From assembly GCA_022449545.1 (NCBI GenBank), contig JAKUPN010000007.1, positions 1 to 64,000 on the forward strand: a stretch of DNA of 64,000 nt, in the 5' to 3' direction. Of this stretch, positions 1-19,484 are shown piece by piece. The stretch comes from Alphaproteobacteria bacterium. GTDB lineage: Bacteria; Pseudomonadota; Alphaproteobacteria; UBA6615. A model generated the notes under the pieces. That model did no database searches. It was not told the origin of the DNA and saw nothing but the letters and a program-made list of their open reading frames with translations. The position numbers and the translations under genes are program-made. Positions within the stretch are counted from its first letter, which is position 1. Each line of letters starts with the position of its first letter.

Positions 1-204
1 GCCCATAACAGCTTGGGTCACACACTCCAGACATTGGGGAGATTAGACGAGGCTGAAGCAAGCTTGAGGCAGGCGATAACATTTAGATCTGAATATTCCG
101 AAGCCCATAACAACATGGGTATTACCTTAAACGAACTGGGAAGATTAGAGGAGGCTGAAGCAAGCTTGAGGAAGGCGATAGCATTGAAATCTGACTTTAT
201 TGAG
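1..204 (+). repeat. 102-bp tandem DNA repeat encoding TPR units
   Basis: Bases 1-102 and 103-204 are two copies of a 102-bp unit (34 codons). Both begin gcccataac and share long identical blocks such as gaggctgaagcaagcttgag. Conservation at the DNA level suggests recent duplication or gene conversion of the TPR units. The array may continue beyond the left edge. Confidence 0.8.
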
Positions 205-981
205 GCTTTCTGGAACCTGTCTGGTATGGAAAAAACTATTCAAGGTGCTGAACATTGGGTTGATAAATGTTTGATGGTAGATACAAACTATTTGCCAGCA
301 AAATTAACAAAGGCTGCTCTAAGGTTTTATCAAGGCGATGGAGATGACTTTGATAATTTGATGAAATCTGAATTCAAACAACATAGCTATATGCGATCAT
401 TTTCTTGGGCTTTCAGCCTACCTAATATTCCTGACTTATACTTTAATAGGTGGTATTTTTTTGACGCGATTGTTAAGAAAAGTATTCGTTCAAGGCCTTT
501 TTATGAGTTTGGTGTGTGGAAGGGTGAAGCATTTAAATACCTTATTAAGTCTTTTAAAAAAGGTTACGGTTTTGATACATTTTCAGGCTTGCCTGAAGAC
601 TGGCACTCTGGAAATCGTATTGAGCCGTCGGGTGCTTATACGAGTGATGGAAATGTACCCGACATTAAAGGGGCGGAATTTATTGTAGGTAAATTTGAAG
701 ACACTTTACCAATATTCTATTCTAAGTCTCGTCCTCTAGCGTCAGTAATAAATTTCGATGCAGATTTATACTCTTCCACTCTTTGTGCTTTAAATTATTC
801 AAAACCAGTAATGGATAAACACACTGTTCTTATCTTTGACGAATTCATAATCAACGAAAGTTGGGAACAAGATGAATTTAAAGCATTAACCGAATTTGCT
901 TCCATAAATAACTATACGTATGAAGTAATTGCGATCTCATTTTTTACAAAACAAGTGGCTGTAAAATTAATTGGAATTTAA
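1..981 (+). CDS. TPR protein with C-terminal TylF-like SAM methyltransferase domain (5' end outside window)
   Basis: The reading frame is open from base 1, so the true start lies upstream of the window. The first ~70 codons encode two 34-residue tetratricopeptide repeats of the AHNNxGxxLxxLGRLEEAEAS type. After a short linker, the C-terminal ~180 residues resemble TylF/MycF-type class I O-methyltransferases: a motif I stretch FYEFGVWKGEAFKYL for SAM binding, a GFDTFSGLPEDW segment, and an acidic INFDADLYSST motif like the metal-binding aspartates of that family. The TPRs probably recruit a protein or glycan partner, and the methyl acceptor is unknown. The TPR DNA is itself repetitive (see the repeat entry). 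Domain recognition is by eye. The methyltransferase assignment is good, the substrate is not known. Confidence 0.75.
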   Translation, partial: AHNSLGHTLQTLGRLDEAEASLRQAITFRSEYSEAHNNMGITLNELGRLEEAEASLRKAIALKSDFIEAFWNLSGMEKTIQGAEHWVDKCLMVDTNYLPAKLTKAALRFYQGDGDDFDNLMKSEFKQHSYMRSFSWAFSLPNIPDLYFNRWYFFDAIVKKSIRSRPFYEFGVWKGEAFKYLIKSFKKGYGFDTFSGLPEDWHSGNRIEPSGAYTSDGNVPDIKGAEFIVGKFEDTLPIFYSKSRPLASVINFDADLYSSTLCALNYSKPVMDKHTVLIFDEFIINESWEQDEFKALTEFASINNYTYEVIAISFFTKQVAVKLIGI

Positions 982-1145
982 TGTATTACAATCGAGATCA
1001 GGGGGAGACGACTATGGTAATTGTTTTTTCATATTTCTTCAACTTAGCCTGTTTACATGTCTGAAGTTACCCCACGGAAAATGAACCTTGCGGTGCTTCT
1101 CACTGCTTGTGGGAATTTTATTATTAGTCGTATAGTTAAATAACG

Positions 1146-1517
1146 GTGACCCTTTTTCTCGCAGACATTGTTTTAGTTTTTCATTTTTGCATTGTAGTGT
1201 TTGTTGCCTCTGGATTACTTCTTATACCAATTGGTTACACCTTCCATTGGGAGTGGACTTCAAACAAGAAATTAAGAATATCCCATTGTGCTTTGATGGC
1301 GTTTGTCACGCTTGAAACATTACTAGGAATAACCTGCCCACTTACCTCTATTGAAAATAAATTGCGGGGAATCACTCAATCTGAAACATTCATCGGACAT
1401 TGGATTCAAAAATTAATTTATTGGGATTTTCCAATAGAGTTTTTCATAGTTTTATACTGTATAATATTGGGGTGGACATTTCTTATGTGGAAGATTTTTC
1501 CACCAAAAAAAACTTAA
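1146..1517 (+). CDS. DUF2784 family inner-membrane protein
   Basis: This 123-residue protein has about four hydrophobic segments. It carries the features I associate with DUF2784: an N-terminal LADIVLVFHFCIVVFVASG helix, a central CPLT motif followed by ENKLR, and a conserved FIGHW before the last helices. The family is uncharacterised and membrane-embedded. The start is a GTG; no strong Shine-Dalgarno is visible, but the predicted first helix begins right there. It is followed 40 bp downstream by a secreted protein on the same strand, so the two may be cotranscribed. Confidence 0.7.
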   Translation: MTLFLADIVLVFHFCIVVFVASGLLLIPIGYTFHWEWTSNKKLRISHCALMAFVTLETLLGITCPLTSIENKLRGITQSETFIGHWIQKLIYWDFPIEFFIVLYCIILGWTFLMWKIFPPKKT

Positions 1518-1557
1518 TACAAGATAAAGTGTGTTCATTCAGCGACAGGAGATTATC

Positions 1558-1974
1558 GTGAAACTTTCAAACTTATTTCTTGTGCTTCTAATTCTAATAT
1601 TATTTTTCCCGACCAACTCTCTCGCTCATACTAGTGGTAAAATAAACTGGGAGGAGTATAGAAGTAATTCCATCCTCTATGGACAAGTCACTGGATGCCT
1701 TATGCGGTTCAAACTATATTCAGAATTATCTGCGAGTGAGAAAATTAAAAAATCGACAATTGACATAATAGTAAATCGCATTGTTGGTGACGTTGATGGG
1801 CATTTAGGAAAACTTTATCAACTAGGTAAAGAAAGTGGGCATTTTGGCGGAAGTCCAAAGCCTTGGATAAAAATGATGTCTCAACTTAGTAAAGAAGAAC
1901 TAAAGAATAATATGGCGTGGCTGCAAACATTGACTTGTTATAAGATATTAATTGACCATAATTTTACATTTTAG
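1558..1974 (+). CDS. Hypothetical secreted protein
   Basis: I do not recognise this 138-residue protein. I chose the GTG at 1558 over an in-frame GTG at 1531 because an AGGAG sits six bases upstream and the product then begins directly with a signal peptide (MKLSNLFLVLLILILFF, likely cleavage after NSLAH or nearby). The mature part is about 115 residues, largely helical in appearance, with two cysteines (CLMRF and LTCYK) that could form a disulfide in the periplasm. A basic patch (EKIKKS) and a GHFGGSPKPW segment are other visible features. It lies between a DUF2784 membrane protein and a TPR-oxygenase, which gives no clear functional clue. Confidence 0.6.
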   Translation: MKLSNLFLVLLILILFFPTNSLAHTSGKINWEEYRSNSILYGQVTGCLMRFKLYSELSASEKIKKSTIDIIVNRIVGDVDGHLGKLYQLGKESGHFGGSPKPWIKMMSQLSKEELKNNMAWLQTLTCYKILIDHNFTF

Positions 1975-1994
1975 ATACGGTTGATAAAATATTA

Positions 1995-3278
1995 ATGGAT
2001 AAAGAAAGACAGGAAGAAATCGATAGCCTTCAAGCTCTGTACTACGAGGGTGACATGGCCGTCGTCATTCCCAAAGCCCAAGAACTTGTTCGACAATATC
2101 AAAGTGCTACTGCAATTAATATTTTGGCTCTTGCACATAAAAGACAAGGTAATATTGATCAAGCGAGACAAATTTTCGAGCAAGTACTGCTTGATAATCC
2201 TACAAATGTTCTTTTTCTAGGAAATTTAGGAAATATTTATATAGACATGGGTAAGCTTGATAAAGCAGAAGAGTGCTATGTAAAGGCGCTAGAAGAGGAC
2301 CCATCATCAATAGGTCTCTCGGTTTCACTTGCAAACGTTTATTCACTTACAGCTAGACCCAGTCGTGCGTTAAAAATTCTTCATCAGATGCTCTCGCACA
2401 AAGACAGACTAACCGATAAAGACCTCGATGATATTAATTTTAAGATTGCAGAGATTTATAGAGATGCTGGCAGCGATTTTTATGATAAAGCAATTGAGCA
2501 TTACAGTAGAAGCAGGAAGCGGTTAAGCTCCACATTGTGGTTAGAATTAATTTATAGATCAAAAGATCAAGAGACTTTTCGTTACTCAGAAGAAAAAGTT
2601 CTTAAGACAGGAGAAGTAAACCCTCTTCTGGCAGCTGTTCAAACTCATGCATCAATTCGCTATAAAATCCCTGATAGGAATTTATTTTCTAGGGATCCAC
2701 TGTCATATATAAAGCTCTCAAAGCTTAGTCCTGATGAGGGCTTTAATGACGACTTAGTTGATAAGTTGCTAAAATCTTCAAAAGATTTTGATGCGAGGCC
2801 CCAAGAATTGTTGAAGCATGGCTCTCAGACCTCGGGAAATATTTTTCTATCTTCCGATCCGGCTTTTATGACCTTGAAAACAATTATTCTTCGAAAGATA
2901 GAGGAGTATAGATCTAATTTCTCTGGATCAACTGATGGGTTTATCAGTAACTGGCCTAATAATAGTGAACTTCATGGATGGATAGTTGATATGAAAGATG
3001 GAGGTTTTCTTAAGCCACACATGCATAAGCTTGGATGGTTGAGTGGCAGTTTATACTTATCATTGAAAAAAATACCGGGATCTAACTCGGGAAATATTAT
3101 TTTTGATCTGAAGGGTGCTAGTTATCCCTCAAATTCAAAAGATTTTCCTAGTATTGAATGTAATATTACTCAAGGTGATATAGTTATGTTCCCTTCATCT
3201 ATATTTCATTACACAATAGCTTCCGAAGCAAATGAAGGCAGAATAAGTTTGGCTTTTGATGTAAAACCTGTTGATTAG
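1995..3278 (+). CDS. TPR protein with C-terminal putative 2OG-Fe(II) oxygenase domain
   Basis: The 427-residue product begins with three to four tetratricopeptide repeats (roughly residues 5-170, for example NVLFLGNLGNIYIDMGKLDKAEECY) and ends with a domain resembling the putative 2OG-Fe(II) oxygenase family PF13759. In that domain I see PHMHKLGWLSGSLYLSL, with the first iron-ligand histidine, and about 65 residues later GDIVMFPSSIFHYT, with the distal histidine, followed by an arginine in RISLAF that could bind the 2-oxoglutarate carboxylate. Such TPR fusions are thought to hydroxylate proteins or small molecules, but the substrate is unknown. The ATG start has only a weak ribosome binding site. 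Confidence 0.75.
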   Translation: MDKERQEEIDSLQALYYEGDMAVVIPKAQELVRQYQSATAINILALAHKRQGNIDQARQIFEQVLLDNPTNVLFLGNLGNIYIDMGKLDKAEECYVKALEEDPSSIGLSVSLANVYSLTARPSRALKILHQMLSHKDRLTDKDLDDINFKIAEIYRDAGSDFYDKAIEHYSRSRKRLSSTLWLELIYRSKDQETFRYSEEKVLKTGEVNPLLAAVQTHASIRYKIPDRNLFSRDPLSYIKLSKLSPDEGFNDDLVDKLLKSSKDFDARPQELLKHGSQTSGNIFLSSDPAFMTLKTIILRKIEEYRSNFSGSTDGFISNWPNNSELHGWIVDMKDGGFLKPHMHKLGWLSGSLYLSLKKIPGSNSGNIIFDLKGASYPSNSKDFPSIECNITQGDIVMFPSSIFHYTIASEANEGRISLAFDVKPVD

Positions 3279-3730
3279 CCTACGGTAAAACAACTCCATA
3301 TTACTGAGATTGGGTCTCGACTAGTCACTTTCTAAATTATTGGCAAATAGAAATGTAAATTTTATTATGCTGCTTATATGTAATAAGTTTGTCTTTTAAC
3401 TTACTGAAATCATTGATATTTCTGTGCATAGATAAATTTAACATAAATTATTCTTCGTTGATTCTTTTTAGTCTTTTTCTTACATTTAAGCAATAGTTCT
3501 ATAAACGTGAGGCACTTAGTATTATAGTAATAAGTGGGTGTAAATTTAGAGTTTGAGGCACGACTTTTGGCTGAGGGCAAGTTGAATTATTTGATTAAGC
3601 TTGTGTAAACAAAAGAGGGCAGTATTAGTAATTTCTTGTTTGGTTGCTAAATGAAGACAAATATATTGCTCTTGTGAATTGAAGCTCTGGCGTAGGCGCT
3701 CATATTTGGTCTGAATGAGGCAGGGTTGTC
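3279..3730. other. Gene-free interval before the TctBAC operon
   Basis: This AT-rich stretch of about 450 bp has stops in all frames. I see no RNA gene and no convincing terminator. It must contain the promoter region of the downstream transporter genes. A 57-codon antisense open frame near 3550-3720 lacks a plausible start and is probably chance. Confidence 0.6.
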
Positions 3731-4243
3731 ATGTTTGTCAGGTTTAACTTTAACACAATAGCCGCATTTGTTTTTATTTTGCTCTCTATAGGGCTTTTTT
3801 TGGTTATCCCTTACCAGATTGATAAGCCGCTTATTAATATAGCCGGAGTGGGTGGGTCTAATCTATCAGCGGAGTTGTTTCCAAAAATAGTTGCCGCAAG
3901 CCTATTTTTACTGGGTATATGGTATTTGATGATAAGTTTTAACATCGTTCAAAAGAATGATTTGTTAGAGCTTGATCGTGAAGCAGTTACCAATGTTCTT
4001 ATTACTTTTGTCTTAATGGGATGTTACGTTTTTCTAATGGTTAATCTGGGGTTTGTGTTAGGGTCAGCGTTAATGGTTTTAACTATGTCTACTTACTTCG
4101 GCAATCGGAATTTAATAGTCGGGCTAGCTCTAAGCATTCTACTTCCAATGTTCATGTTTTTTGTTTTCCGGCGTTTATTGCTTGTTGAATTACCTCCTTT
4201 TCCAATTGATATTTGGCCTTTAACTCACTGGTCATTGATATAG
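3731..4243 (+). CDS. tctB: Tripartite tricarboxylate transporter small membrane subunit TctB
   Basis: This 170-residue protein with about four transmembrane segments matches the TctB family by size, topology and its place directly before tctA. The N-terminal helix, a GVGGSNLSAELFPKIVAA loop and a second helix LFLLGIWYLM are characteristic. TctB forms the small subunit of the secondary carboxylate importer driven by an ion gradient. The ATG follows GAGGCAGGG. The gap to tctA is 26 bp, so the two are cotranscribed. Confidence 0.85.
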   Translation: MFVRFNFNTIAAFVFILLSIGLFLVIPYQIDKPLINIAGVGGSNLSAELFPKIVAASLFLLGIWYLMISFNIVQKNDLLELDREAVTNVLITFVLMGCYVFLMVNLGFVLGSALMVLTMSTYFGNRNLIVGLALSILLPMFMFFVFRRLLLVELPPFPIDIWPLTHWSLI

Positions 4244-4269
4244 ATGGTCTGTAATAGGAATAAAACCTG

Positions 4270-5775
4270 ATGTTTGAATCATTTATTGATGGCGTTGGTT
4301 TGGCTCTCCGGTTGGACACGATGTTATATATATCTGGTGGGCTTTTTCTAGGGATGTTTGTGGGAGCATTGCCAGGGTTCACGACCTTGATGGCCATGGC
4401 AATATTATTACCTATTTCCTTCTTTCTGGATCCATTGCTTGGTATTCCATTCTTGATAGGTGTTTATAAAGGTGGAATTTTTGGTGGTTCAATTCCTGCC
4501 ATACTTGTCTCAATGCCTGGAACGGGCGCTTCAGTTGCAACCACGTTTGACGGTCCATCCTTGACTAAACAGGGAAAAGGTCGAAAGGCGTTAGAGATGG
4601 CGCTTTACGCTTCCGTAACCGGAGATATTACCAGTGATATCATAACAATAATTCTAATTGGACCAATTGCGGCTATTGCGCTTTTGATGGGGCCACCCGA
4701 GTTGGCAGCAATTATACTCTTGGCTCTTATAGTAATATCTGCGACCTCTAGCGGGGTGTTTGTAAAAGGGTTGATAATGCTAGTTATTGGTCTGTTTCTT
4801 GCTATGGTTGGTCAAGATCCGATAGGGGCGCTCTCCAGATTTTCATTCGGCATGACAGAGATACAATCGGGAATACCCTTGCTTCCAATGCTCATAGGTG
4901 TTTTTGCTCTACCAGAGATATTTGTGAATATAGAGAAAAAAGCGAGCAAATTCATTAAAGCTGAAGATTTGAAGATAACAGGAGAACGCCTAAAATGGGC
5001 AGAATTCAAGAGGTGCTTAAGGACAATCGGCAGGTCTACTGCGATTGGTACAGGGATCGGAATGATTCCAGGCGTTGGTCAGGTAGTTGCTGCTTTTATG
5101 GGTTATGCTGCGGCCAAGAACGCTTCAAAAACTCCAGAAAAATTTGGTAAGGGTGAATTAGAAGGAGTTGCAGCCGCTGAGGCTGCTAATAATGCAGTAA
5201 ATGGACCTACATTAGTTCCTCTTTTGACCTTGGGTATACCGGGAGACAATCTAACCGTAATCCTTGTCGGGGCTTTCATCGCGCAGGGCATGCGGCCTGG
5301 GCCACAGTTAATGGAGCAACAGGGGGATTTAGTTTATGCTATTTTAGTAGCCATGATATTAGCTAACCTTCTATTTATAGTTATTGGTTATTTAGCCATT
5401 CCTTTTTTTGCAAAAGTAGTAACTATCAGAAAGAGTTTTCTTCTTCCTTTGACTTTGGTTTTTGCCTTTGCTGGGACCTGGATTTTTAGGGCACAGCCAT
5501 TTGACTTAGGGGTTTTAGTGTTTTTTGGTCTTTTTGGATATTTAGCGAAAAAACTCCAATTTGATGTAACTCCTTTGGCAATGGGGTTTATACTTGGTCC
5601 TGTTCTGGAATACTCCTTTGGTCAGTCAATTCAGCTCTCAGATGGTAATTTAATTAACTATATGCTTTATGAACGCCCCATTTCGGCAGTGATACTTGCT
5701 ATAACACCAGTGATAACTTTTTTAATGTGGCGAAGAAGTATGAGGCTTAGAGCCCAGTTTAAAGACCCCGGTTAG
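4270..5775 (+). CDS. tctA: Tripartite tricarboxylate transporter large permease TctA
   Basis: At 501 residues with about twelve hydrophobic segments, this has the usual TctA length. Family hallmarks are visible: GMFVGALPGFTTLMAMAILLP near the N-terminus, the glycine/proline-rich loop GIGMIPGVGQVVAAFMGYA in the middle, and TLGIPGDNLTVILVGAF after an AAAEAANNAVNGPTLVP segment. It forms the translocation channel that works with the TctC receptor. AGGA lies upstream of the ATG. The ligand cannot be read from the sequence; characterised systems carry citrate, aromatic acids such as terephthalate, and other carboxylates. Confidence 0.93.
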   Translation: MFESFIDGVGLALRLDTMLYISGGLFLGMFVGALPGFTTLMAMAILLPISFFLDPLLGIPFLIGVYKGGIFGGSIPAILVSMPGTGASVATTFDGPSLTKQGKGRKALEMALYASVTGDITSDIITIILIGPIAAIALLMGPPELAAIILLALIVISATSSGVFVKGLIMLVIGLFLAMVGQDPIGALSRFSFGMTEIQSGIPLLPMLIGVFALPEIFVNIEKKASKFIKAEDLKITGERLKWAEFKRCLRTIGRSTAIGTGIGMIPGVGQVVAAFMGYAAAKNASKTPEKFGKGELEGVAAAEAANNAVNGPTLVPLLTLGIPGDNLTVILVGAFIAQGMRPGPQLMEQQGDLVYAILVAMILANLLFIVIGYLAIPFFAKVVTIRKSFLLPLTLVFAFAGTWIFRAQPFDLGVLVFFGLFGYLAKKLQFDVTPLAMGFILGPVLEYSFGQSIQLSDGNLINYMLYERPISAVILAITPVITFLMWRRSMRLRAQFKDPG

Positions 5776-5891
5776 CTGATTTTAATCAGGAAAACACATG
5801 ATTCGTCCGCTGGCAATATTTTCCCTATTGCTTTAGGGTTAGAGATAACAGCGCGTCATAGGAAATAATGAAATGATAAAGGAGGAGACAG

Positions 5892-6857
5892 ATGAAGATT
5901 ATGAGTATTTCTAGGTTTCTTGTCGCGGTTCTTTTAGTTGGTGGACTGATTAGCACTGATGCCGCTAGGGCAGAGTATCCTGAAAAACCAATCACTTTAA
6001 TCATTCCAGTTGGTGCAGGTGGTTCTCATGACAGGAATGCCAGAGTATTTACGAGTGTCATACCGGAATTTCTGGGAAATGCTGTGATAGTCAAGTTAAT
6101 GCCGGGTGCCTCGGGTCAGGTCGGGACTGCAGCTGCAGCTAAAGCTAAGCCTGATGGATATACCCTGCTTTTTACTCACAACTATTTCGATCAGCTTCAA
6201 AAGCACGTGAAAAAGTTGCCTTATGATACTGACAGAGATTTTATAACTGTTGGAAAGCTTAATTCTGGAAATTTTTCATTTATCGTCATGGCAGACAGCC
6301 CATTCAAGACATGGGGGCAGTTAGTTGATCATGCAAAGAAAAATCCTGGAAAGTTAAAATTTGCTCATTCTGGACTTTGGGGGGCAGGTCATGCTCCAGC
6401 ACTTCAGCTTTTTAATGAAGCCGGTATTGCGGATAAAATAAAGATGGTTTCCTATAAAGGTGGTGGGCCATCTTTACGCGGTTTTTTAGCTCGAGAAGTT
6501 GACTTTACAGCGCAATTTAAGTCAACAATTATAGCTCAGGGTGATAAAGTGAGGGTGCTTGTTAGTGCAGGCACTAAAACAGCCTTCAAAGGCGCCCCAA
6601 CCTTCAAGGAATTGGGTTACACTGCGGATATAGGGCTTATGCACAGAGTAATAATGGCTCCTAGAAAAACTCCCGCTGACCGAATTGCCATACTTCAAGA
6701 TTCTTTGAAGAAGTTACAAAAACATAAAACTTATAAGAAACTTATTAAAGCAATAGGTGAAACAACGGACTATGTAGATGGTCCAGAATATGAAAAACAG
6801 CGTCCCCTGCAAAGCAAGGCCTATAAAGCTATGATTCAAGGGCTAATAAAGAAATAA
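5892..6857 (+). CDS. tctC: Tripartite tricarboxylate transporter substrate-binding protein TctC (Bug family)
   Basis: The 321-residue product has a signal peptide (hydrophobic core about residues 7-24, cleavage near ARA-EYP) and the Bug/TctC fold signature: YPEKPITLIIPVGAGGSHD near the mature N-terminus, a GQVGTAAAAKAKPDGYTLL segment and a PTFKELGY motif. It is the periplasmic receptor for TctA/TctB. The start has a strong AAAGGAGGAGACAG ribosome binding site. A rho-independent terminator follows immediately. No two-component regulator (TctDE) is present nearby. Confidence 0.93.
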   Translation: MKIMSISRFLVAVLLVGGLISTDAARAEYPEKPITLIIPVGAGGSHDRNARVFTSVIPEFLGNAVIVKLMPGASGQVGTAAAAKAKPDGYTLLFTHNYFDQLQKHVKKLPYDTDRDFITVGKLNSGNFSFIVMADSPFKTWGQLVDHAKKNPGKLKFAHSGLWGAGHAPALQLFNEAGIADKIKMVSYKGGGPSLRGFLAREVDFTAQFKSTIIAQGDKVRVLVSAGTKTAFKGAPTFKELGYTADIGLMHRVIMAPRKTPADRIAILQDSLKKLQKHKTYKKLIKAIGETTDYVDGPEYEKQRPLQSKAYKAMIQGLIKK

Positions 6858-6877
6858 GATGTCAGGGTCAGTTACTT

Positions 6878-6913
6878 ATAGCGCCCCATTTTTTGGGGCG
6901 CTATTTTCTTTTT
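6878..6913 (+). terminator. Rho-independent terminator of tctBAC
   Basis: A ten-base-pair GC-rich stem (6878-6887 ATAGCGCCCC pairing with 6895-6904 GGGGCGCTAT) encloses a seven-base loop and is followed by TTTCTTTTTC. It lies 20 bp after the tctC stop codon. Confidence 0.93.
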
Positions 6914-7223
6914 CATTTTAGAATTTTAAAATTTATAGAACATATAAATCATCAAGGTGTATCCTTATAATGATGATACTATGGTTTCTCATTCATTAGT
7001 TGCTTTTCCAAATGAGATAGCCGACACAGTCATGTATTTTGTCTTGCTTAAAGATGGAAAGTAATCCCGGCCAGAAACTGGTTTAACCTCTGTAAAATGA
7101 AGGATTTTAATTTTGAAATGTAACCTATGGATTACTCATATAAGTGGAATAGCGAATTTTACTAAGTGATCGATCTCTTTACTCTTTGCCATCCAATTTA
7201 TTCTTAATAAGAATGGAGTCATT
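6914..7223. other. Gene-free interval after the tct terminator
   Basis: About 310 bp of AT-rich sequence with no recognised gene or RNA. A 27-codon plus-strand frame starting at 6981 and a stop-interrupted minus-strand frame are present but match nothing I know. Confidence 0.5.
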
Positions 7224-7421
7224 ATGGAAACCAAAAAAAGATCACTTTTAAAGACAATAACCTGGCGTTCTTTTGTTTTTTTATACTGGGCAGTTTTTGG
7301 TTATATTGCCACGGGTAGTTTTACAAACGCAGGTATTTTTGGTCTAGCTTCTATAATCCCAACTTTCTTTTATTATGTGCATGAGCGTGTTTGGAATAAA
7401 GTATCTTGGGGTAGATCCTAA
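7224..7421 (+). CDS. DUF2061 family small membrane protein
   Basis: This 65-residue protein has two hydrophobic helices and the DUF2061 pattern: an N-terminal KRSLLKTITWR, a first helix, then IPTFFYYVHERVWNKVSWG at the C-terminus. The family is short, membrane-bound and uncharacterised, and occurs widely in proteobacteria. GGAG lies upstream of the ATG. It appears monocistronic. Confidence 0.85.
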   Translation: METKKRSLLKTITWRSFVFLYWAVFGYIATGSFTNAGIFGLASIIPTFFYYVHERVWNKVSWGRS

Positions 7422-7512
7422 AAGATCAAACCCATAGTATTTATTTTGAAGGATATAATTAAGAGAAAGCTCTGGGTTTATTAGAATTTCCCAAAAAGAA
7501 AGATTTATCACC

Positions 7513-8394
7513 ATGATAAAAAAAATTGGAGTTCTCGGTCTTGGACGAATGGGGGGAACGGCTGCAAGGTTATTGTTGGCTGATGGTCATGAGGTTTTTG
7601 CGGTGGATAGGCCTAGCACACGATGGTTGCTTGACGCGGGGGGAAATCTTGTTGGAAACCCTCGAACACTTGGAGAAGTGGCCGACTTAATAATTCTACT
7701 TCTCGCTCGTGAAGAAGACGTGGAGACAGCTATTTTTGGTGCTGACGGTCTTGCTGAAGGAGGGCAAAAAGGGATGATAGTTGCCGATATGGGAACCTTT
7801 GGAGTGGCATTAAAGGAACGCATTTATGAGGCGCTTACACTTTCTGGTGCTTTTGTTCTAGATGCTCCGATCAGCGGCACGCCAGATGCGATGGAAACTA
7901 AAAGGGCAGTAATCATGTTGAGCGGTGATGAGAGCGCGTGTGAGTTGATCCGACCAGTATTAGAAGTTCTGGCCCCCAAATGTAACTATGTTGGCCCCTT
8001 TGGTCATGGTATAAAACTCAAATTTGTACTCAATGCTATGGTAACAAACCATGTTTTGGTTACCGCTGAAGCTCTCAATATTGGAATTGCATCGGGGTTG
8101 GAACCTCAGCAGATAATTGATGCTGTTACATCTAGTGTTGCTACTTCGACGCAGTTTGAATTGCGCGCTCCGGTCATGGCGGCGCGGAAGTGGCAACCGG
8201 CCCCTGCGCCAGCCAGTTTGGTTGAAAAGGATACACGGTATATTGTCGAGCATGCTGAGGCATTAGGTGTAGCAGCGCCAGTAGCAGTTCTTACCCGAGA
8301 TTACTATGCGAAAGTGGCTGAGATGGGATTATTAGAAGGAGAACTATCCATCATTTATGAAGCCTTGCAAACTGATAATCGCCGTGTAGATTAG
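7513..8394 (+). CDS. NAD(P)-dependent beta-hydroxyacid dehydrogenase (3-hydroxyisobutyrate dehydrogenase family)
   Basis: The 293-residue enzyme has the family layout. The N-terminal Rossmann motif is GVLGLGRMGGTAARLL. The substrate-binding motif is DAPISGTPDAMETKRAVIML, a variant of the usual DAPVSGG. The catalytic lysine lies in GHGIKLKFVLNAM, and a helical C-terminal domain follows. Relatives oxidise 3-hydroxyisobutyrate or reduce tartronate semialdehyde or succinic semialdehyde, and the exact substrate cannot be told here. In the substrate motif the usual second glycine is replaced (SGTP), so specificity may differ. It stands alone between DUF2061 and a degraded gene, so context does not help. 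Confidence 0.85.
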   Translation: MIKKIGVLGLGRMGGTAARLLLADGHEVFAVDRPSTRWLLDAGGNLVGNPRTLGEVADLIILLLAREEDVETAIFGADGLAEGGQKGMIVADMGTFGVALKERIYEALTLSGAFVLDAPISGTPDAMETKRAVIMLSGDESACELIRPVLEVLAPKCNYVGPFGHGIKLKFVLNAMVTNHVLVTAEALNIGIASGLEPQQIIDAVTSSVATSTQFELRAPVMAARKWQPAPAPASLVEKDTRYIVEHAEALGVAAPVAVLTRDYYAKVAEMGLLEGELSIIYEALQTDNRRVD

Positions 8395-8436
8395 CTGTGA
8401 ACAATTATATTAAACCTCAATGTGCTATTGCATAAA

Positions 8437-8883
8437 TTAGGGGACAGGCCTTCTAGTCCAGGCTGCAAATCTAAATTTTTCTGCACGATAAAAGTTCTGT
8501 AAACTATCACAGGGTCTTTATCTTTGTAATCATCAGGCATTGCTTGCGGGGGCTCTTTCCATCCAATATCAGGAATTGGTGGTGTGAAATGTAGAGATTT
8601 AATTACGTTTTCTGAAGTATGTTTTTTTTTCGTAACGCCATTTATATTCGGCACATAAAGCCAAACCAAAAAGTTTTAACCAATGATAATGTTGCATTCT
8701 ATCTCCAACCCACAATGTTGTTGGATGTTATGAATGAGTGGGTTTATAGGGTGCTGGTAGTTCATACCTGTATAGCGACGTGCATAATAATTGAGCTGTT
8801 TCTATACACATTTTTACAACATGTTTATCACAGTGATAATGGACTTTCTGGTTTATATCTCGATCTAAATAAAATAAATTCAT
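8437..8883 (-). pseudogene. Decayed phage-type hypothetical gene (one nonsense codon, two frameshifts)
   Basis: Reading the minus strand from an ATG at 8883 gives a coherent protein of about 147 codons once three lesions are bridged. Frame one runs MNLFYLDRDINQ, then CDKHVVKMCIETAQLL, PYKPTHS, a TAA at 8730-8728, HPTTLWVGDRMQHYHW and ALCAEYKWRYEKK. A run of nine A (plus-strand T at 8622-8630) then shifts the frame to HTSENVIKSL, PIPDIGWKEPPQAMPDDYK and VIVYR. A one-base deletion near 8496 shifts it again to NFYRAEKFRFAAWTRRPVP, ending at TAA 8439-8437. From memory, this ordered set of motifs belongs to an uncharacterised family common in marine phages and some bacteria. The two indels compensate each other. 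RBS-like AGGG precedes the ATG. Confidence 0.8.
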
Positions 8884-9040
8884 CACCCTACATTACGGGA
8901 AACTAATTCAAAAAGATCAGTTTGAGGGCAACTTAATTAGTTTAAAATAGATTATATTAAACCTAACATTAAATGAGTTATTATTAACTAAACCCATATT
9001 ACTTATTGATTGAATTTCAAATAACTTGACAGTGTAAAGC

Positions 9041-9607
9041 ATGAATATGAAAAAAAACTTCTCTCTTTCTTTCACCATTTCGTTATTAGTTTTGGTTATT
9101 ATGGCAAATAAAGCACCTGGTGAAGTTATCTTTAGTGATAACTTTCGTGATTCAAATCAATGGAAATTTATTTCAGATACCGTAATGGGCGGAGTATCAA
9201 CAGGAACGGTTGTTTTTGAGACAAAAGATGGATCGTCTTTTGCTCTACTGTCAGGGAATGTAACGACTGAAAATAATGGCGGATTTATCCAGATACGGAG
9301 AAATTTAAGGGATCAAAAATTAGCAAAAGCTAACTTTATTAAAATCGTAGCCAAAGGTAACAATCAAAAATATTTTATTCATTTGCGCACTACTGGAATG
9401 TTGTTTCCATGGCAGTACTATCAATCCGAATTCACTGTCACTGAAGAATTTAATGAATTTATATTACCAATTAAGGAATTTAAAAAATCAGGTTTTCTAT
9501 TAACAAATACTGTCCGTTCTTCAGGAATTACCTCATTAGGCGTAGTTGCCATAGGAAGAAATCATCAGGCCAAAATTTATATTAAAGAGATATTATTTTT
9601 TGAGTAA
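9041..9607 (+). CDS. CIA30 family protein with signal peptide
   Basis: The 188-residue product starts with a signal peptide (about residues 1-27) and continues as a CIA30 beta-sandwich domain. The opening FSDNFRDSNQWKFISDTVMGGVSTG is diagnostic of the family, with the SDxVMGGxS motif, and a late TSLGVVAIGRNHQAKIYIKEI strand closes the fold. CIA30 was named for a mitochondrial complex I assembly factor. Bacterial members are exported or cytosolic proteins of unknown role and the fold resembles carbohydrate-binding modules, so a complex I role should not be assumed. A second in-frame ATG lies two codons downstream. Confidence 0.85.
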   Translation: MNMKKNFSLSFTISLLVLVIMANKAPGEVIFSDNFRDSNQWKFISDTVMGGVSTGTVVFETKDGSSFALLSGNVTTENNGGFIQIRRNLRDQKLAKANFIKIVAKGNNQKYFIHLRTTGMLFPWQYYQSEFTVTEEFNEFILPIKEFKKSGFLLTNTVRSSGITSLGVVAIGRNHQAKIYIKEILFFE

Positions 9608-9686
9608 AGCCTCTCTAGTTTTACCCAAGAGCTATAAAAAATAAGATAGAGAGTTAAGAAAAAGAATATTTTTAAGGGGAAATTAA

Positions 9687-10799
9687 ATGAAAACACGTGC
9701 AGCGGTCGCTTTGGAATCTGGAAAGCAATTGGAGATAATGGAGGTTAATTTAGAATTACCACGCAAAGGAGAGGTGCTGGTAGAAATTAAAGCAACCGGC
9801 CTATGCCATACCGATGATTTTACTCGATCTGGTGATGATCCAGAGGGCATATTTCCTGCGATACTAGGTCACGAAGGCGCCGGGGTTGTTGTTGATGTTG
9901 GCGAGGGAGTGGCCAGCCTTGAAATCGGTGATCATGTGATACCGCTTTATACGCCTGAATGCAGGGAATGTGAGTATTGCCTGAACCCCAAAACCAATCT
10001 CTGTCAGTCTATTCGGACGACCCAGGGTCAGGGCCTTTTGCCTGATGGGTCGACACGTTTTACAATGTTGGATGGCACACCGATATATCACTATATGGGG
10101 TGTTCTACTTTTGCTAACCACACTGTGGTACCAGAGATTGCGCTTGCAAAAGTTCGAAAAGACGCCCCATTTGATAAGATCTGCTACATCGGATGTGGTG
10201 TTACGACGGGAATCGGAGCAGTTATTAACACCGCAAAAGTTGAGATCGGGAGCCGGGCAATTGTGTTTGGACTTGGGGGCATAGGGCTGAATGTGGTCCA
10301 GGGTCTTCGTCTTGCTGGAGCTGATCAAATCGTTGGAGTTGATCTTAATGCTAGTAAAGCTGAAATGGGTAGACATTTTGGTATGACAGATTTCGTTAAT
10401 CCGTCGGATATAGAAAGAGATATGGTTGCCTATCTAGTTGATCTGACCAGCGGTGGAGCCGATTATACGTTTGATGCCACAGGTAATGTTTCTGTGATGC
10501 GTACTGCATTAGAATCTGCACATAAGGGCTGGGGTGAAAGTATTATAATTGGTGTAGCTCCAGCAGGAGCTGAAATTAATACCAGGCCATTCCAGTTAGT
10601 TACAGGTCGTGTGTGGCGGGGCACTGCATTTGGTGGTGCGTCGGGCAGGACAGATGTACCCAATATAGTCGACTGGTATATGGACGGAAAAATAGAAATT
10701 GATCCGATGATTACACATAAACTTAGCTTAGATGAAATCAACCACGGGTTTAACCTCATGCATGAGGGAAAGTCGATCCGCGCCGTGGTGGAGTTTTAG
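9687..10799 (+). CDS. frmA: S-(hydroxymethyl)glutathione dehydrogenase / class III alcohol dehydrogenase
   Basis: The 370-residue enzyme oxidises S-(hydroxymethyl)glutathione, formed from formaldehyde and glutathione, to S-formylglutathione with NAD+. Catalytic zinc ligands are Cys40, His62 and Cys170. Structural zinc ligands are Cys92, Cys95, Cys98 and Cys106. The class III signature [15 protein letters not shown] and HYMGCSTF are present, as is the Rossmann motif [13 protein letters not shown] and a C-terminal [10 protein letters not shown]. Similarity to human ADH5 is evident along the whole length. The start has AAGGGGA upstream. It is followed at 36 bp by an SDR and then an MDR, an apparent operon. 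No S-formylglutathione hydrolase or Gfa is adjacent. Confidence 0.93.
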
Positions 10800-10835
10800 C
10801 AAAACAAACAGAAGGGATGGACTGGGAGAAGAGAA

Positions 10836-11633
10836 ATGAGATTGAAGGATAAAGTTGCTATTGTGGTTGGCGCTGGACAGCAACCCGGCGAGACAATTGG
10901 CAATGGTCGGGCTACAGCTTTTCGCTTTGCACAAGAAGGGGCAAAGGTGCTCTTAGTAGATAAGAATAGAGACTGGGTAGCTGATACATCCAGGATGATA
11001 GAAGAAAAAGGTGGTATTTGTAAAATACTCACCGCCGATATTACAGAAGAATCTAATTGTAAAAACATTGCACAGGACTGCCTCACGAATTTTGGTAAAA
11101 TTGATATCCTACATAACAATGTTGGACGTTCTGAAGGTGATAATGAAACCCAGGCAATGGATGCATCAATATGGGATCAGCTAATGGAAATGAATGTGAA
11201 GGGCATGTTTATGACCTGCAAGCATGTTCTTCCTATAATGAGGAATCAGAAAGAGGGAGTAATAATAAACATCTCTTCAATAGCTTCTATCTGTTCTCAC
11301 AATAGTATTACCTATAAAACAGGTAAGGGTGCTGTGAATACAATGACGCACCATCTCGCAATGGAAAATGCAGCTTATGGTGTTCGAGCAAATGTTATTT
11401 TGCCAGGTCTCATGGATACTCCAATGGCAATAGAACGAAGAGCTCGTGAGCAAAAGATAGATAGGGATGAGGTTAGAAGAGGACGGGATGCACGAGTACC
11501 ACTATTGCGTCGGATGGGAACTGCTTGGGATGTAGCAAATGCGGCAGTTTTTTTAGCTTCTGATGAGGCAAACTACATAACTGGCATAATAATGCCGGTT
11601 GATGGTGGTTTGTCGTCAAATATAGGACAATAA
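10836..11633 (+). CDS. Short-chain dehydrogenase/reductase
   Basis: The 265-residue SDR has an extended cofactor loop, VVGAGQQPGETIGNGRATA, in place of the plain TGxxxGxG. It also has NNVG (the NNAG position), a catalytic serine in NISSIAS, and Tyr-x-x-x-Lys in ITYKTGK. The C-terminus carries a typical GIIMPVDGGLSS. GGGAG lies ahead of the ATG. It sits between frmA and a quinone-oxidoreductase-like gene, with 36 and 17 bp gaps, and is probably cotranscribed with them. The substrate is unknown; a role in oxidising a small alcohol in the same pathway as FrmA is only a guess. Confidence 0.85.
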   Translation: MRLKDKVAIVVGAGQQPGETIGNGRATAFRFAQEGAKVLLVDKNRDWVADTSRMIEEKGGICKILTADITEESNCKNIAQDCLTNFGKIDILHNNVGRSEGDNETQAMDASIWDQLMEMNVKGMFMTCKHVLPIMRNQKEGVIINISSIASICSHNSITYKTGKGAVNTMTHHLAMENAAYGVRANVILPGLMDTPMAIERRAREQKIDRDEVRRGRDARVPLLRRMGTAWDVANAAVFLASDEANYITGIIMPVDGGLSSNIGQ

Positions 11634-11650
11634 GCCAGAGGAAAAACCCA

Positions 11651-12643
11651 ATGAAAGCTATACGTTTGCATCAAACAGGTGGCCCAGAAGTTCTCCAGCT
11701 CGACGAAATTAACCGCCCAATTCCAGAACCAGGCGAAGTTCTGGTTAAGGCTCATTCAATCGGAGTTGGGCTGGCTGATCAATTGGTTCGAAATGGGCGT
11801 TATCCATGGATGCCAGAACTACCGACTATTCCTGGAATTGAAATGAGCGGAAATATAGAGGTTATCGGGGAAGATGTAACGGGTCACAAAAATGGCGATT
11901 CGGTTATTGTCACAAACGTTCCTGCACGAAGTTGTTATGCAGAATACATTGCTGTAGATGCTAATTTTGTTTTTCCCTGTCGCAGTGATGTGGATCTTGC
12001 TGATGCAGCTTGTCTAACCAACTATCGAGTTGCTCACCGCATATTGCATACTGCTGTGCGAGCAAGAAAAGGAGAGACAATAGTTATTGTTGGTGCCGCT
12101 GGAGGCTTGGGAAGTGCATTGATGCAACTTGCTAATGATGCCGACTTAAAAACAATAGCAGTCGTGCGAAGTGATATTAAGGCCACCTTTGCCCGTGATC
12201 AGAACGCTGACCATGTAATCAACTCCCAGACCGAGGACTTGAATGAACGTATTATGGAGATTACCAATAACCGAGGTGTAGACCACTTCATTGATCCAGT
12301 AGGGGGAGATAAATTTGTGGGTTACCTAGATTTATTAGCACCTACGGGTACATTAGTACTTTACGGGTTGATCGATGGATTACCTGAAGATGATATATTC
12401 GCTGCCCAGTGTAAAAGATGGAACTATAGCCCAGCTGTACGTATGTTCTCTATCCACTCCTATGACGAAAACGCAGAGGATACCTCTAAAGATTTGGCTA
12501 TGCTCATAGATATGATTGCCGAGGAAAGAATTACACCTGTTATTTTTGCAAAGCTTCCTCTCGGTGAAGCCGCATCAGCTCACAGGCAGCTGGAAGAAGG
12601 TACAGTTCTTGGCAAAATCATTTTACAACCGAAACTAGATTAG
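11651..12643 (+). CDS. Zinc-independent MDR family quinone oxidoreductase-like protein
   Basis: The 330-residue product belongs to the medium-chain dehydrogenase/reductase superfamily, quinone oxidoreductase (zeta-crystallin) type. The start MKAIRLHQTGGPEVLQLDE, the GIEMSG segment and the NADPH loop VGAAGGLGSALMQLA are visible, and the zinc ligands of alcohol dehydrogenases are absent. A late DHFIDPVGGDKF is also typical. It likely reduces a quinone or an activated double bond with NADPH. AGAGGA precedes the ATG. Only 17 bp separate it from the SDR upstream, so it is the last gene of the frmA cluster. Confidence 0.85.
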   Translation: MKAIRLHQTGGPEVLQLDEINRPIPEPGEVLVKAHSIGVGLADQLVRNGRYPWMPELPTIPGIEMSGNIEVIGEDVTGHKNGDSVIVTNVPARSCYAEYIAVDANFVFPCRSDVDLADAACLTNYRVAHRILHTAVRARKGETIVIVGAAGGLGSALMQLANDADLKTIAVVRSDIKATFARDQNADHVINSQTEDLNERIMEITNNRGVDHFIDPVGGDKFVGYLDLLAPTGTLVLYGLIDGLPEDDIFAAQCKRWNYSPAVRMFSIHSYDENAEDTSKDLAMLIDMIAEERITPVIFAKLPLGEAASAHRQLEEGTVLGKIILQPKLD

Positions 12644-12720
12644 CCCTGGCGTTTGTCTGAAGGCTGCGTTCTTATAGGTTTTATGTAAATCTATTATCAG
12701 ATGATAAATAATCCACGGCA

Positions 12721-13113
12721 TCAAGCGATCAGAATTTGATATAGAATACAAAGTTGAGCCAACCAACTACCGGCAAAAGTTAGCGTTCGGGCAAATGGTA
12801 TTCCAGCCAAATAAGTCAAATAGTGAGCTAATCGTAGCCAGAAATAGGCCATTGCTGCTGAAACAGTTGCTTCATTTGTGACTTCAGCTAAATTTGCAAC
12901 AATTACTAAAGCTGCGAATGGTACAAGGTTTTCAATTGCATTATAATGAGCTCGTTTGGCTCGTAAGGCCCATCCAGTCAAAGAAGTCTCATCTGCTTGA
13001 TAGGTCAAAGACGGCATCAATCCATTATTAGAAATATGTGATAAAATGTAAGGAACCCACATCAAAATCGTTAAACCAGAAACCCAAGCTAGCATCTCAA
13101 GTTCAGTAGACAT
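12721..13113 (-). CDS. MAPEG family membrane protein
   Basis: This 130-residue protein has four hydrophobic helices and the MAPEG pattern: RAKRAHYNAIENLVPFAALVIVAN in the second helix region, then RLAHYLTYLAGIPFARTLTF. The family includes microsomal glutathione S-transferases and leukotriene C4 synthase. Bacterial members of this length are mostly uncharacterised. It is on the opposite strand to both neighbours, so it is transcribed alone. A glutathione role fits the presence of frmA and a GST nearby but is not demonstrated. Confidence 0.88.
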   Translation of the reverse strand: MSTELEMLAWVSGLTILMWVPYILSHISNNGLMPSLTYQADETSLTGWALRAKRAHYNAIENLVPFAALVIVANLAEVTNEATVSAAMAYFWLRLAHYLTYLAGIPFARTLTFAGSWLAQLCILYQILIA

Positions 13114-13282
13114 AAGCTTTTAACCCCTTGTTTCTTAATCATAGTTATGATGCAAATCATAGATGAGTGACGCTAACTGAACAAGTGCATTCACCGCAGA
13201 ACAGAAGAATGCAATAATAGCACTTTAGTATTACACTAGGAGAGTATACTAGGCTAAGATCAGAGCATTATCTGGAGGAACT

Positions 13283-14437
13283 ATGACAAATAATGGGATA
13301 CCAATCGAAGGTTTTTGCGATACAGAGTTTGCAGCGGTAAAAGAAACATTTTACGAAAATTTTTCAAGTCGAAATGAGATTGGTGCGGGAGTTTGTGTTT
13401 ATAAAGATGGAGAAAAAGTGGTTGACCTTTGGGGTGGGCACAAGGATGAAGATCGCCAAAATCCCTGGACTGAGGAGACCATAGTACTTATGAATTCAGT
13501 AGCTAAGTCAATGTGTGCCCTGGCAGTTCATGCTCTCTCAGATCAAGGTAAGCTGAATATTAATGCGCCGGTTGCAGAATATTGGCCTGAGTTCGCGCAA
13601 AAGGGTAAGTCACACATTCTTGTTCGTCATGTCCTTGGACATGAGTGTGGTGCTATTTTTTCTGATCAAGCTGTTCCCGGGGATTGGTTTAACTACCCAG
13701 CGCAGTGCGCTGCTATTGCAGCTCAGGAGCCTGCTTTTGAAGCAGGGACAAAGGGGGCATATAATACAATAAATATTGGATTTATTCTTGGCGAGGTTGT
13801 GCGTCATGTTTCTGGAAAATCGATAGGTCAATTTATTCGCGATGAGATTTCGGGCCCACTAGGCGCTGAATATAATATTGGACTATCCCCTGAGGAATCA
13901 GATCTCTGCGCTACAATGCACTTGAACCCCGAAAACGTTTTTTGGTCAGACGGAGCTCAACCTGGTTCTAATTTACATCGAGCATGGTCAGGGCGTCCTG
14001 AGAGAGATGATTTACTAAATTGCAGTGAAATAAGAGAAGGAGAATTACCAGCATTCGGTGGACATGGTAATGCGCGCGGTGTAGCTAAGATATACGCTAT
14101 GTTAGCTGGTGATGGTGAGGTTGAAGGCATAAGAATTCTTAAGCCAAAAACCGTAGAGCAAGCGTCTAAATTGGTTTGGCAAGGCACTTGCTATATGACT
14201 GGTTGGGATTTGAGAATGGGTTTAGGGTTTGAGCATAATAGCCCACCATATATAGCTATGGGTAATAATATGAGTGCTTTCGGTAAATTAGGTTCCGGTG
14301 GTGCGCTTGGTTTTTGTGATAGGGAAAGAAACTTAGCCTTTAGTTATTGCACTAATTTTCAATGCGAAGGAGCGGGCACGGGTATCCGTTGTCGTCTGCT
14401 TGGTGAAGCAGCTGCTGGTGTTGCTCAGAAAGTTTAA
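13283..14437 (+). CDS. Serine hydrolase of the class C beta-lactamase/esterase family
   Basis: At 384 residues, this matches the EstB/6-aminohexanoate hydrolase branch of the class C beta-lactamase superfamily. The nucleophile motif is Ser72-Val-Ala-Lys75, the second motif Tyr160-Asn161, and a glycine-rich FGKLGSGGALGF near the C-terminus replaces KTG. A GGHGNARGVAKIYAMLA segment is typical of the esterase members. No signal peptide is seen, so it is cytosolic and more likely an esterase, lactonase or amidase than an antibiotic-resistance enzyme. The ATG follows a strong GGAGG. Confidence 0.88.
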   Translation: MTNNGIPIEGFCDTEFAAVKETFYENFSSRNEIGAGVCVYKDGEKVVDLWGGHKDEDRQNPWTEETIVLMNSVAKSMCALAVHALSDQGKLNINAPVAEYWPEFAQKGKSHILVRHVLGHECGAIFSDQAVPGDWFNYPAQCAAIAAQEPAFEAGTKGAYNTINIGFILGEVVRHVSGKSIGQFIRDEISGPLGAEYNIGLSPEESDLCATMHLNPENVFWSDGAQPGSNLHRAWSGRPERDDLLNCSEIREGELPAFGGHGNARGVAKIYAMLAGDGEVEGIRILKPKTVEQASKLVWQGTCYMTGWDLRMGLGFEHNSPPYIAMGNNMSAFGKLGSGGALGFCDRERNLAFSYCTNFQCEGAGTGIRCRLLGEAAAGVAQKV

Positions 14438-14528
14438 ATAATTGTATTAGGTATTGATTTAAATTAACGCAATCTGGTCAATATTTTCCTATTGTGCCAT
14501 AGTATAGAGACTTATTCAGGAGTTTTTC

Positions 14529-15800
14529 ATGGATCAGCCGAATATGAAAGAGAACATCAGAACACTGGATGGAGGTGAATTGTCTTCATCTTACATACCT
14601 CCGCTTGAGCTTACAGAAGGCCAACCTCCCCCAATAGCAGCAAATGGGGGTTTGTCATATATGTCCTTCGAAAAAAATGGTGATGCGGGAACATCTGCGG
14701 CTATAGAGGCCGCCTTAGCTCAAATTGAGGATGGGAAGCAGGTAGTAAACATGATCGAGAATGCCCCTCCAGGCCCTATCAAAACAAAATGGGGTTTAGG
14801 TTTCCGCGATTATGATGAATGCCTTGATCATATTAATACGAATGGTATTGGTTCTTCTGAAGGGACTTTAGCACTGCCTTTAGCTTATACAATTTTTGAA
14901 CAACCTACATATTCCATAGTGCCGTCAAACTCTTTATGGAAAGATCCTTTACGCTCAACAGAGGCAGAATTGTTGCGTGATAATGAAGATGGAAATCGAC
15001 GTCGAAATCTTTATTTTCCACAAGTCATGCGTGATGCAAGGCGCATCGGAGAGTACTATCCAGGTCTTACACCCAATAGTTCTGAATGCCTGGATCGACT
15101 CGGTTTGTCACTGGCACATTTAGAATCTAAGTGTACAAATTTCTATGATTCTGCAGAGGTGCAGCGCGTATTTTATCCTGAAATAGAGAATTTGCTTTTA
15201 GAGTTTTTTCCGGATTCAACTGATGCTCTTGTTTTCAATCATGATATTTTTGATAAAGATTATGCTGGAGATAGAACAGAAGACCAAGACGCAAAAAACC
15301 CAGGCGTAAATTCAAGTTACGTTAACCTTGTGCATAATGATCTCAACGACAATAGTGGCCGCGTTCGTTGTCGAGAGTTATTGACTAAAAACCTTAGAAA
15401 CTTTGGAAGGGAACTAAACTACTCTGAGGCAGAAGCCGAAGCGAAAATGTCTCGGCGTTTTTTATCTATCAACTTAGCAAAACCAATGGAAACAGTTGAG
15501 CAATTTCCATTCGTTTTGTGTGCTTGGCCCTCCTTTTCTGATCAGCCCTACATTAATAATTATAGAATTTATGATGATCGAGTTGGTGAGACTACTCGTT
15601 TCACTTATCGTTCCGACCATGAGTGGTACTGGATCCCAAGGCAGACGCCAACTGAAGTGTCAATGCTGAAATGCTATGATTCTATTAACGATGGATCAGT
15701 GTCACGCTGGTCGTTTCATACGGCCTGTGTTGATCCAACGGTTCCACTAGATGCGTCATGTCGTAAGAACGTAGTGGTGCGCGCCTACGTTTTCTACTAG
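14529..15800 (+). CDS. CmcJ/NvfI-like protein with N-terminal extension
   Basis: The 423-residue protein ends with the pattern I associate with the CmcJ/NvfI (asaB, GA4-desaturase-like) family. In order it shows VHNDLND, RRFLSINLAKPM, FPFVLCAWPSF, a DHEWYWIPRQTPTEVSMLKCYDS block and a closing PLDASCRKNVVVRAYVFY. Fungal members are putative Fe/2-oxoglutarate oxidoreductases, and CmcJ takes part in cephamycin 7-alpha-methoxylation. His in VHND and the late HTA are candidate metal ligands. It has about 130 residues more at the N-terminus than the paralogue at 25604-26467, with an unrecognised segment. GGAG lies before the ATG. The reaction is unknown. Confidence 0.75.
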   Translation: MDQPNMKENIRTLDGGELSSSYIPPLELTEGQPPPIAANGGLSYMSFEKNGDAGTSAAIEAALAQIEDGKQVVNMIENAPPGPIKTKWGLGFRDYDECLDHINTNGIGSSEGTLALPLAYTIFEQPTYSIVPSNSLWKDPLRSTEAELLRDNEDGNRRRNLYFPQVMRDARRIGEYYPGLTPNSSECLDRLGLSLAHLESKCTNFYDSAEVQRVFYPEIENLLLEFFPDSTDALVFNHDIFDKDYAGDRTEDQDAKNPGVNSSYVNLVHNDLNDNSGRVRCRELLTKNLRNFGRELNYSEAEAEAKMSRRFLSINLAKPMETVEQFPFVLCAWPSFSDQPYINNYRIYDDRVGETTRFTYRSDHEWYWIPRQTPTEVSMLKCYDSINDGSVSRWSFHTACVDPTVPLDASCRKNVVVRAYVFY

Positions 15801-15881
15801 GGGCCATACAAGACCAATTTATCGAAGTTTTAATTAATGCCATTTTTGCTGTATTATCAGCTTCTAAAAGAGAGCAGGTAA

Positions 15882-16697
15882 CTATATAGAGCTTTCTTTT
15901 TCTATCCTCGATAGTTTTTCCATAAACGGGGAAATATCGGGAGAAAAATCAGGGTGATCGCAAAGGCGGTCGAAGTGTCCCATGGCACGTGGGTATTTTG
16001 CACCTAATTTTTTCTGATCATACACAACATCAATATTCAAATTTTTCAAATTTTTTAGATGGGCTCTTTCCCTAGATATTTGGCAAATCTCACACACGAA
16101 GCAAATATCAGCAATACTAAGCTGATTATTAACTAGTCCATTCAATTTGTTTTTAAGGGCGTTATCGATCCCACTTAGATAATATTCTAAGGCGTTAGCA
16201 GTTTGATTTCGTGTTTGTAAATCTGGGGCACCTTGAGAAAGGGCAAGTAGATATATCTGACTTTGCCGAGCGAATACAAGTGAAACATCTAGAAAGCTAT
16301 CAATCCTAGAAGCCTCATAAGGCCCAGATCCATATAGTTTTTCTTTGCCTTGACCAAGTCTAGCGACGGTTCGAAGTATGCTATTAGACTCAAAGATTCC
16401 TATATTACCATTTGGGCTGAATGCAGCTGGTACTGTTCCAAACGGGTGAGCCTCGAGAAATGCATTTGTTTTATGCAAGGTTTTATCAAATCCAGAACTA
16501 GGTTGTACCTGAACAACGTCTTTATGTTCAAAATCGTCTACTTCTAAAGGGCGTGCATCAAAGTCCCACAGCCAATTGATTAATTCCTTTGGCTTGTCTC
16601 CCCTGATTTCAATTTCAACTCCGCATAGTCTCGCAGCAATATTTGCTTTCATTATGCGTGGGTTTGGTAGATAAGAAAAAATTCTAATAACGGCCAT
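15882..16697 (-). CDS. Glutathione S-transferase family protein
   Basis: The 271-residue protein has a thioredoxin-like N-terminal half (IRIFSYLPNPRIMKANIAARLCG through ESNSILRTVARLG, where ESNSI matches the glutathione-binding ESxAI turn) and a helical C-terminal half with the N-capping motif LSIADICFVCE. An insertion in the N-terminal domain makes it longer than a canonical GST. It resembles eEF1B-gamma-like GSTs in the SNSILRYVARL stretch. AAGGAG lies before the ATG. It is the last gene of a minus-strand run with amidase, propeller, monooxygenase and nitrilase, although the gap to the amidase is too small to tell whether it has its own promoter. Confidence 0.8.
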   Translation of the reverse strand: MAVIRIFSYLPNPRIMKANIAARLCGVEIEIRGDKPKELINWLWDFDARPLEVDDFEHKDVVQVQPSSGFDKTLHKTNAFLEAHPFGTVPAAFSPNGNIGIFESNSILRTVARLGQGKEKLYGSGPYEASRIDSFLDVSLVFARQSQIYLLALSQGAPDLQTRNQTANALEYYLSGIDNALKNKLNGLVNNQLSIADICFVCEICQISRERAHLKNLKNLNIDVVYDQKKLGAKYPRAMGHFDRLCDHPDFSPDISPFMEKLSRIEKESSI

Positions 16698-16743
16698 TAT
16701 CTAACTCCTTATCCACAGGATAAAACACTAGTAACCCTATTGG

Positions 16744-18198: not shown

Positions 18199-18398
18199 TG
18201 AATGGATTCCTATTAGCTTAAGGATGAATTGCAAATTTATTGTCACACAATAATTTACAGCTAAGAGATAAAACTAAACTGAATGATTAACCCTATTTAA
18301 CTTTAGTCAAGTAATGTATTTCAGCTTCTTAACCCTTTTGGTTATTACTGTGCATATCAATTGGTGATAGGCATTGTAATATATATAACATGCACAAT

Positions 18399-19457: not shown

Positions 19458-19484
19458 TATTAATTTCTCCTTCTTCGTTCTTAA

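Follow-up and report, generated by a model that had tools for sequence, protein, structure and literature searches.

A broken pyrimidine-dimer-glycosylase-type gene in a seemingly empty gap of an alphaproteobacterial genome

An intergenic gap in the analysed window, a 64,000-nucleotide stretch of an alphaproteobacterial genome (G000), contains a gene of the phrog_624 / Pyr_excise-like type that is broken at four points, by two nonsense codons and by two single-base indels that compensate each other. This relic is very probably of chromosomal descent; its ancestor was probably a horizontally acquired gene of the T4 endonuclease V type, and its inactivation looks recent. A first-pass annotation, made from the letters alone, had proposed here a hidden pseudogene of a phage-type family. 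The pseudogene is supported by four lesions, by intact homologues found elsewhere and by unbroken neighbours, and the phage attribution has to be revised. The features of the locus are listed in Table 1.

Table 1. Features of the relic and its surroundings (positions in the window)
Feature	Positions	Strand	Basis or remark
Relic, pyrimidine-dimer-glycosylase-type gene (phrog_624 / PF03013-like)	8425..8883	-	Profile matches and alignment
Nonsense codon TAA, codon 52	8728..8730	-	Arg or Lys in the two nearest relatives
A9 run with +1 frameshift, codons 85-87	8622..8630	-	Alignment to relatives
Single-base deletion (-1 frameshift), codon 130, at about 8495	8494..8496	-	Alignment to relatives
Second nonsense codon TAA, codon 149, four codons before the ancestral stop	8437..8439	-	Lys or Glu in relatives
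Intact NAD-binding dehydrogenase (3-hydroxyisobutyrate dehydrogenase type, PF03446/PF14833)	7513..8394	+	Neighbour; Pfam domains
Intact CIA30-domain protein (PF08547)	9041..9607	+	Neighbour, divergent from the relic; Pfam domain
14-bp perfect direct repeat ATTATATTAAACCT, left copy	8404..8417	+	Repeat search
14-bp direct repeat ATTATATTAAACCT, right copy	8951..8964	+	Repeat search

The relic runs from an ATG (8883-8881) to an ancestral TAG (8427-8425), which corresponds to an ancestral length of about 152 codons. The seven peptide blocks originally quoted are all present on the minus strand, in the order given and in two reading frames. Their location (8437-8883) is real, the relic being slightly longer, down to 8425, once aligned with its relatives. 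The corrected translation does have homologues: spliced, with an X at the stop, it matches the phrog_624 profile of the PHROGs collection over residues 1-143 (profile positions 1-149, E=1.5e-41), and intact relatives were also found. Two unspliced 5' pieces are sufficient to match the same profile on their own (8.1e-16 and 1.8e-9). Run blind against all six frames of the whole genome, this profile retrieved the relic locus at 3.1e-33, with no second copy besides it. Since no splicing is involved in this search, the pattern of peptide blocks is neither a chance effect nor an artefact of frame choice. The Pfam family PF03013 (pyrimidine dimer DNA glycosylase) is also matched, at a score just short of its curated cut-off, over profile positions 1-78 (E=1.2e-4).

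The lesions were located by a frame-aware alignment at the codon level to the two closest intact homologues, both from uncultured Alphaproteobacteria, L053 (single-cell genome AG-404-I19, 68% identity to the relic) and L047 (64% identity). The three lesions initially described, namely the first TAA, a +1 shift within the A9 run and a compensating -1 shift at 8495-8494, are all borne out by this alignment. A second in-frame TAA had been missed, however. After this codon the relic reads Phe-Met-Gln-TAG, the relatives ending with Phe-Met-Leu or Phe-Met-Ser-Asp; the relic loses only four residues through it, perhaps without harm. Disabling effects are attributed to the remaining three lesions. The first TAA ends the protein after 51 of some 152 residues, short of the invariant E79 and R83, and no complete enzyme is thus predicted from the relic sequence. 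A working gene could in principle be maintained through recoding (frameshifting at the A9 run and stop readthrough) or through switching by slippage in this run. Protein-level constraint appears intact in all pieces of the relic, and the A9 run, a classic slippage motif, is a possible site for it. Such a mechanism would nevertheless have to combine a +1 shift with a -1 shift at a site that is not slippery, and to read through an internal TAA as well, all within 152 codons, and each of the 171 relatives kept for alignment has one open frame, which makes recoding or switching extremely improbable.

The relic and L053 differ at 37 first, 21 second and 90 third codon positions, a distribution indicative of past purifying selection on the relic gene. 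Private replacements amount to 9 in the relic, 9 in L053 and 15 in L047, and departures at positions at least 90% conserved among the 171 relatives are three in the relic and three in L053. Since private replacements are no more numerous than in its intact sister L053, the relic gene looks, at the sequence level, to have lost its function recently. Real decay, as first suggested, is probable, with the added precision that it is recent. It is slightly odd that the relic carries four lesions yet shows no detectable surplus of replaced amino acids, and one or two of the sites may conceivably reflect an error in the reads or the assembly. A more radical version, with a gene intact in the organism and all indels and stops due to sequencing or assembly errors, is unlikely. 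It would agree with the position of one indel in a run of nine A, with the mutual compensation of the two indels and with the absence of replacement excess on the relic branch, but three of the four lesions lie elsewhere than in this run, and two lesions are base substitutions that create a TAA. The neighbour genes are also near-identical in length to those of the related genome G002 (window/G002: 427/427, 123/123, 370/370, 265/264, 330/334, 130/130, 384/384 and 293/293 aa), which speaks against an assembly rich in errors overall. Recent inactivation of a genuine gene thus remains the preferred reading.

The relic had also been described as the only phage-like trace in the window. This attribution reflects a family resemblance and not an origin, since the relic's closest relatives sit on the chromosomes of cells, and viral sequences match it at no more than 48-49% identity. 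In a tree of 172 proteins (the relic and its 171 relatives), the relic groups with L053 (support 100/91), then with L047 (98/60) and then with L048 from Magnetococcales (100/93), all of them cellular; as far as sampled, this tree places the relic's own lineage among cells. The relatives were recovered from contigs with an alignment as query, a contig search with the relic sequence alone giving no match. Viral and cellular members are interspersed in the wider family: well-supported branches force at least 11 changes between the two, hence frequent gene movement between phages and cells. The frequency of the family in marine phages was correctly anticipated: 534 phage records, many of them from Synechococcus cyanophages, and at least 593 viral contig stretches carry it, and in the class Alphaproteobacteria it was detected in 5 of 385 genomes. 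In a Wolbachia phage WO record (MN180251; L040 3001-3540), the phrog_624 homologue carries the label 'protein chain release factor A', which looks like a misannotation.

The abundance of the family in phages would suit a phage or prophage fossil, in which the gene arrived with a phage genome that has mostly been lost since, and the 14-bp direct repeat could then represent att-like ends. This scenario is very improbable given the chromosomal and cellular nearest relatives, the lack of any tRNA in positions 1-20000 and the short 533-bp interval between the repeats, entirely filled by one gene. Phage origin was discarded as the leading reading on the basis of the tree and of the identities, and chromosomal descent is retained. 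An Rfam search returned nothing.

The two copies of ATTATATTAAACCT are 547 bp apart and flank the relic gene, which alone occupies the sequence in between. Among 5000 simulated gaps, 19 contained a repeat this long, as did 2 of roughly 630 real windows of the same size. The gap between the dehydrogenase and CIA30 genes measures 646 bp here versus 98 bp in G002; subtraction of one repeat unit (646-547) leaves 99 bp, close to the G002 value, an agreement in length with no sequence proof of an empty site, the intergenic DNA of G002 having diverged beyond alignment with the relic gap. These features hint at a single-gene insertion between the 14-bp repeats, a deletion in G002 being a possible alternative. 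On another part of the window (3731-6857), a tripartite tricarboxylate transporter set is encoded (small and large membrane subunits, TctC receptor), where G002 has a single reading frame of 735 aa (L018 7975-10182).

The search for an intact orthologue at the same locus in related genomes yielded none. G002 has no phrog_624-family gene. The third genome of the genus examined, G001, possesses an intact member of 161 aa (C9:219080-219550), 41% identical to the relic. Like the relic, it belongs to this family and directly adjoins a CIA30 gene; unlike the relic, it lies in opposite orientation to CIA30. Orthology with the relic was ruled out by the tree, which puts the G001 copy in a SAR86-type clade (100/99), so this copy is best described, on phylogenetic grounds, as a separate acquisition. 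In G001, a PAS-domain gene, the intact phrog_624 gene and the CIA30 gene stand in a row (L017 5508-7276); the PAS gene is missing from G000 and G002, and the CIA30 locus of G001 differs from that of the two other genomes. The surroundings of the G001 copy showed no notable direct repeats. A joint transfer of CIA30 and glycosylase genes from SAR86-type donors was considered and rejected, there being no CIA30 gene in the examined flanks of their loci. Ancestral synteny with L053 was likewise rejected: L053 adjoins a uracil phosphoribosyltransferase gene, missing from G000-G002. L047 for its part adjoins a class I lysyl-tRNA synthetase gene (both are housekeeping neighbours, named from their translations). 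No glycosylase gene was found beside the CIA30 genes of other Alphaproteobacteria, the double CIA30 neighbourhood not being found outside the genus, and its sharing by G000 and G001 is suggestive only. A bolder proposal sees the relic as a discrete single-gene insertion, with the 14-bp repeats as target duplications and 533 bp between them, and the CIA30 flank as a spot hit at least twice in the genus by UV-repair glycosylase genes of different ancestry, whatever the mechanism, or through a functional coupling with CIA30; this is speculative and improbable. Among the three genus genomes, a photolyase (PF03441) was found in G001 only. Its presence together with the intact copy, neither being found in the two others, fits a differing exposure to sunlight, on a basis of three genomes only.

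The dead gene of this gap is thus real but fairly ordinary. It represents a fresh instance of a known gene type, a genuine and recently inactivated chromosomal gene of the UV-repair type. The gene would probably have been acquired by horizontal transfer between marine bacteria, its function then being lost recently in the relic's lineage. Although mostly seen in phages, the family also occurs, if rarely, on the chromosomes of marine Alphaproteobacteria as a DNA-repair gene, with gains and losses over a short time scale.

The family had been called uncharacterised, which holds in part only: it overlaps PF03013, and a T4 endonuclease V fold is predicted. PF03013 is also matched by T4 endonuclease V (DenV) itself, and scores of members relative to the 23-bit cut-off vary from 21.0 (L053) and 24.0 (L004) to 31.6 (L023) and 36.7 (L024). 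The AlphaFold2 model of L053 (mean pLDDT 97.5) has T4 endonuclease V (PDB 2end) as its best structural match, with Z 9.1, rmsd 3.6 and 117 aligned residues, the next unrelated row being at 3.9; values of Z under about 13 can be non-specific in helical proteins. Residues 1..149 of the model are aligned to 2..138 of the 2end chain, and Foldseek gives E 1.1 and prob 0.60 for this pair. True relatedness is likely, since the next row lies far behind, the alignment covers nearly the whole length and the Pfam family is shared. No solved structure was retrieved by sequence search, and NCBIfam gave no match. From the model, the ancestor was probably a small helical UV-repair enzyme like T4 endonuclease V, acting as a DNA glycosylase / AP lyase. 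By analogy, it would break the bond between base and sugar at pyrimidine dimers caused by UV light and nick the strand, opening the way for excision repair. Some relatives lie in a DNA-repair context, L024 adjoining a DinB-type polymerase (named from its translation) and a photolyase-annotated gene being present near a family member in one phage. One published roseophage was described as carrying a gene of the same annotation (PMC11288001).

Compared with known families, the relic matches the N-terminal 150 residues or so that are common to phrog_624 (classified in PHROGs as 'DNA binding protein', DNA/RNA/nucleotide metabolism), a profile that the intact L053, L047 and G001 genes match at 1e-45 to 1e-54. 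This profile was built from phage proteins, whereas the relic is broken and its nearest relatives are bacterial. For PF03013 Pyr_excise, the relic scores 22.7 bits, marginally below the curated cut-off of 23, though 72 of 80 relatives match at E<=0.01. T4 endonuclease V (phrog_1183) shares the same overall all-helical fold with the predicted L053 model, but has about 14% identity to the relic's family and belongs to a separate PHROG family. In T4 endonuclease V, Glu23 is a catalytic residue and Thr2 the nucleophile, through its N-terminal amine. In a non-significant hhalign register, H16/E23 of DenV fall on H21/E28 and E77/R81 on E79/R83; these four positions are invariant or nearly so in the phrog_624-type family, and E28 is kept in the relic. 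Arg22 and Arg26 of DenV are not kept (Leu/Ile27 and Gln31). Residue 2 is Asn in nearly all family members, and since this Asn2 replaces the T4 nucleophile, the chemistry of the family may, from its sequences, differ in detail from that of T4 endonuclease V. With Asn instead of Thr at this position, the relic's family is filed as DenV-like, not DenV.
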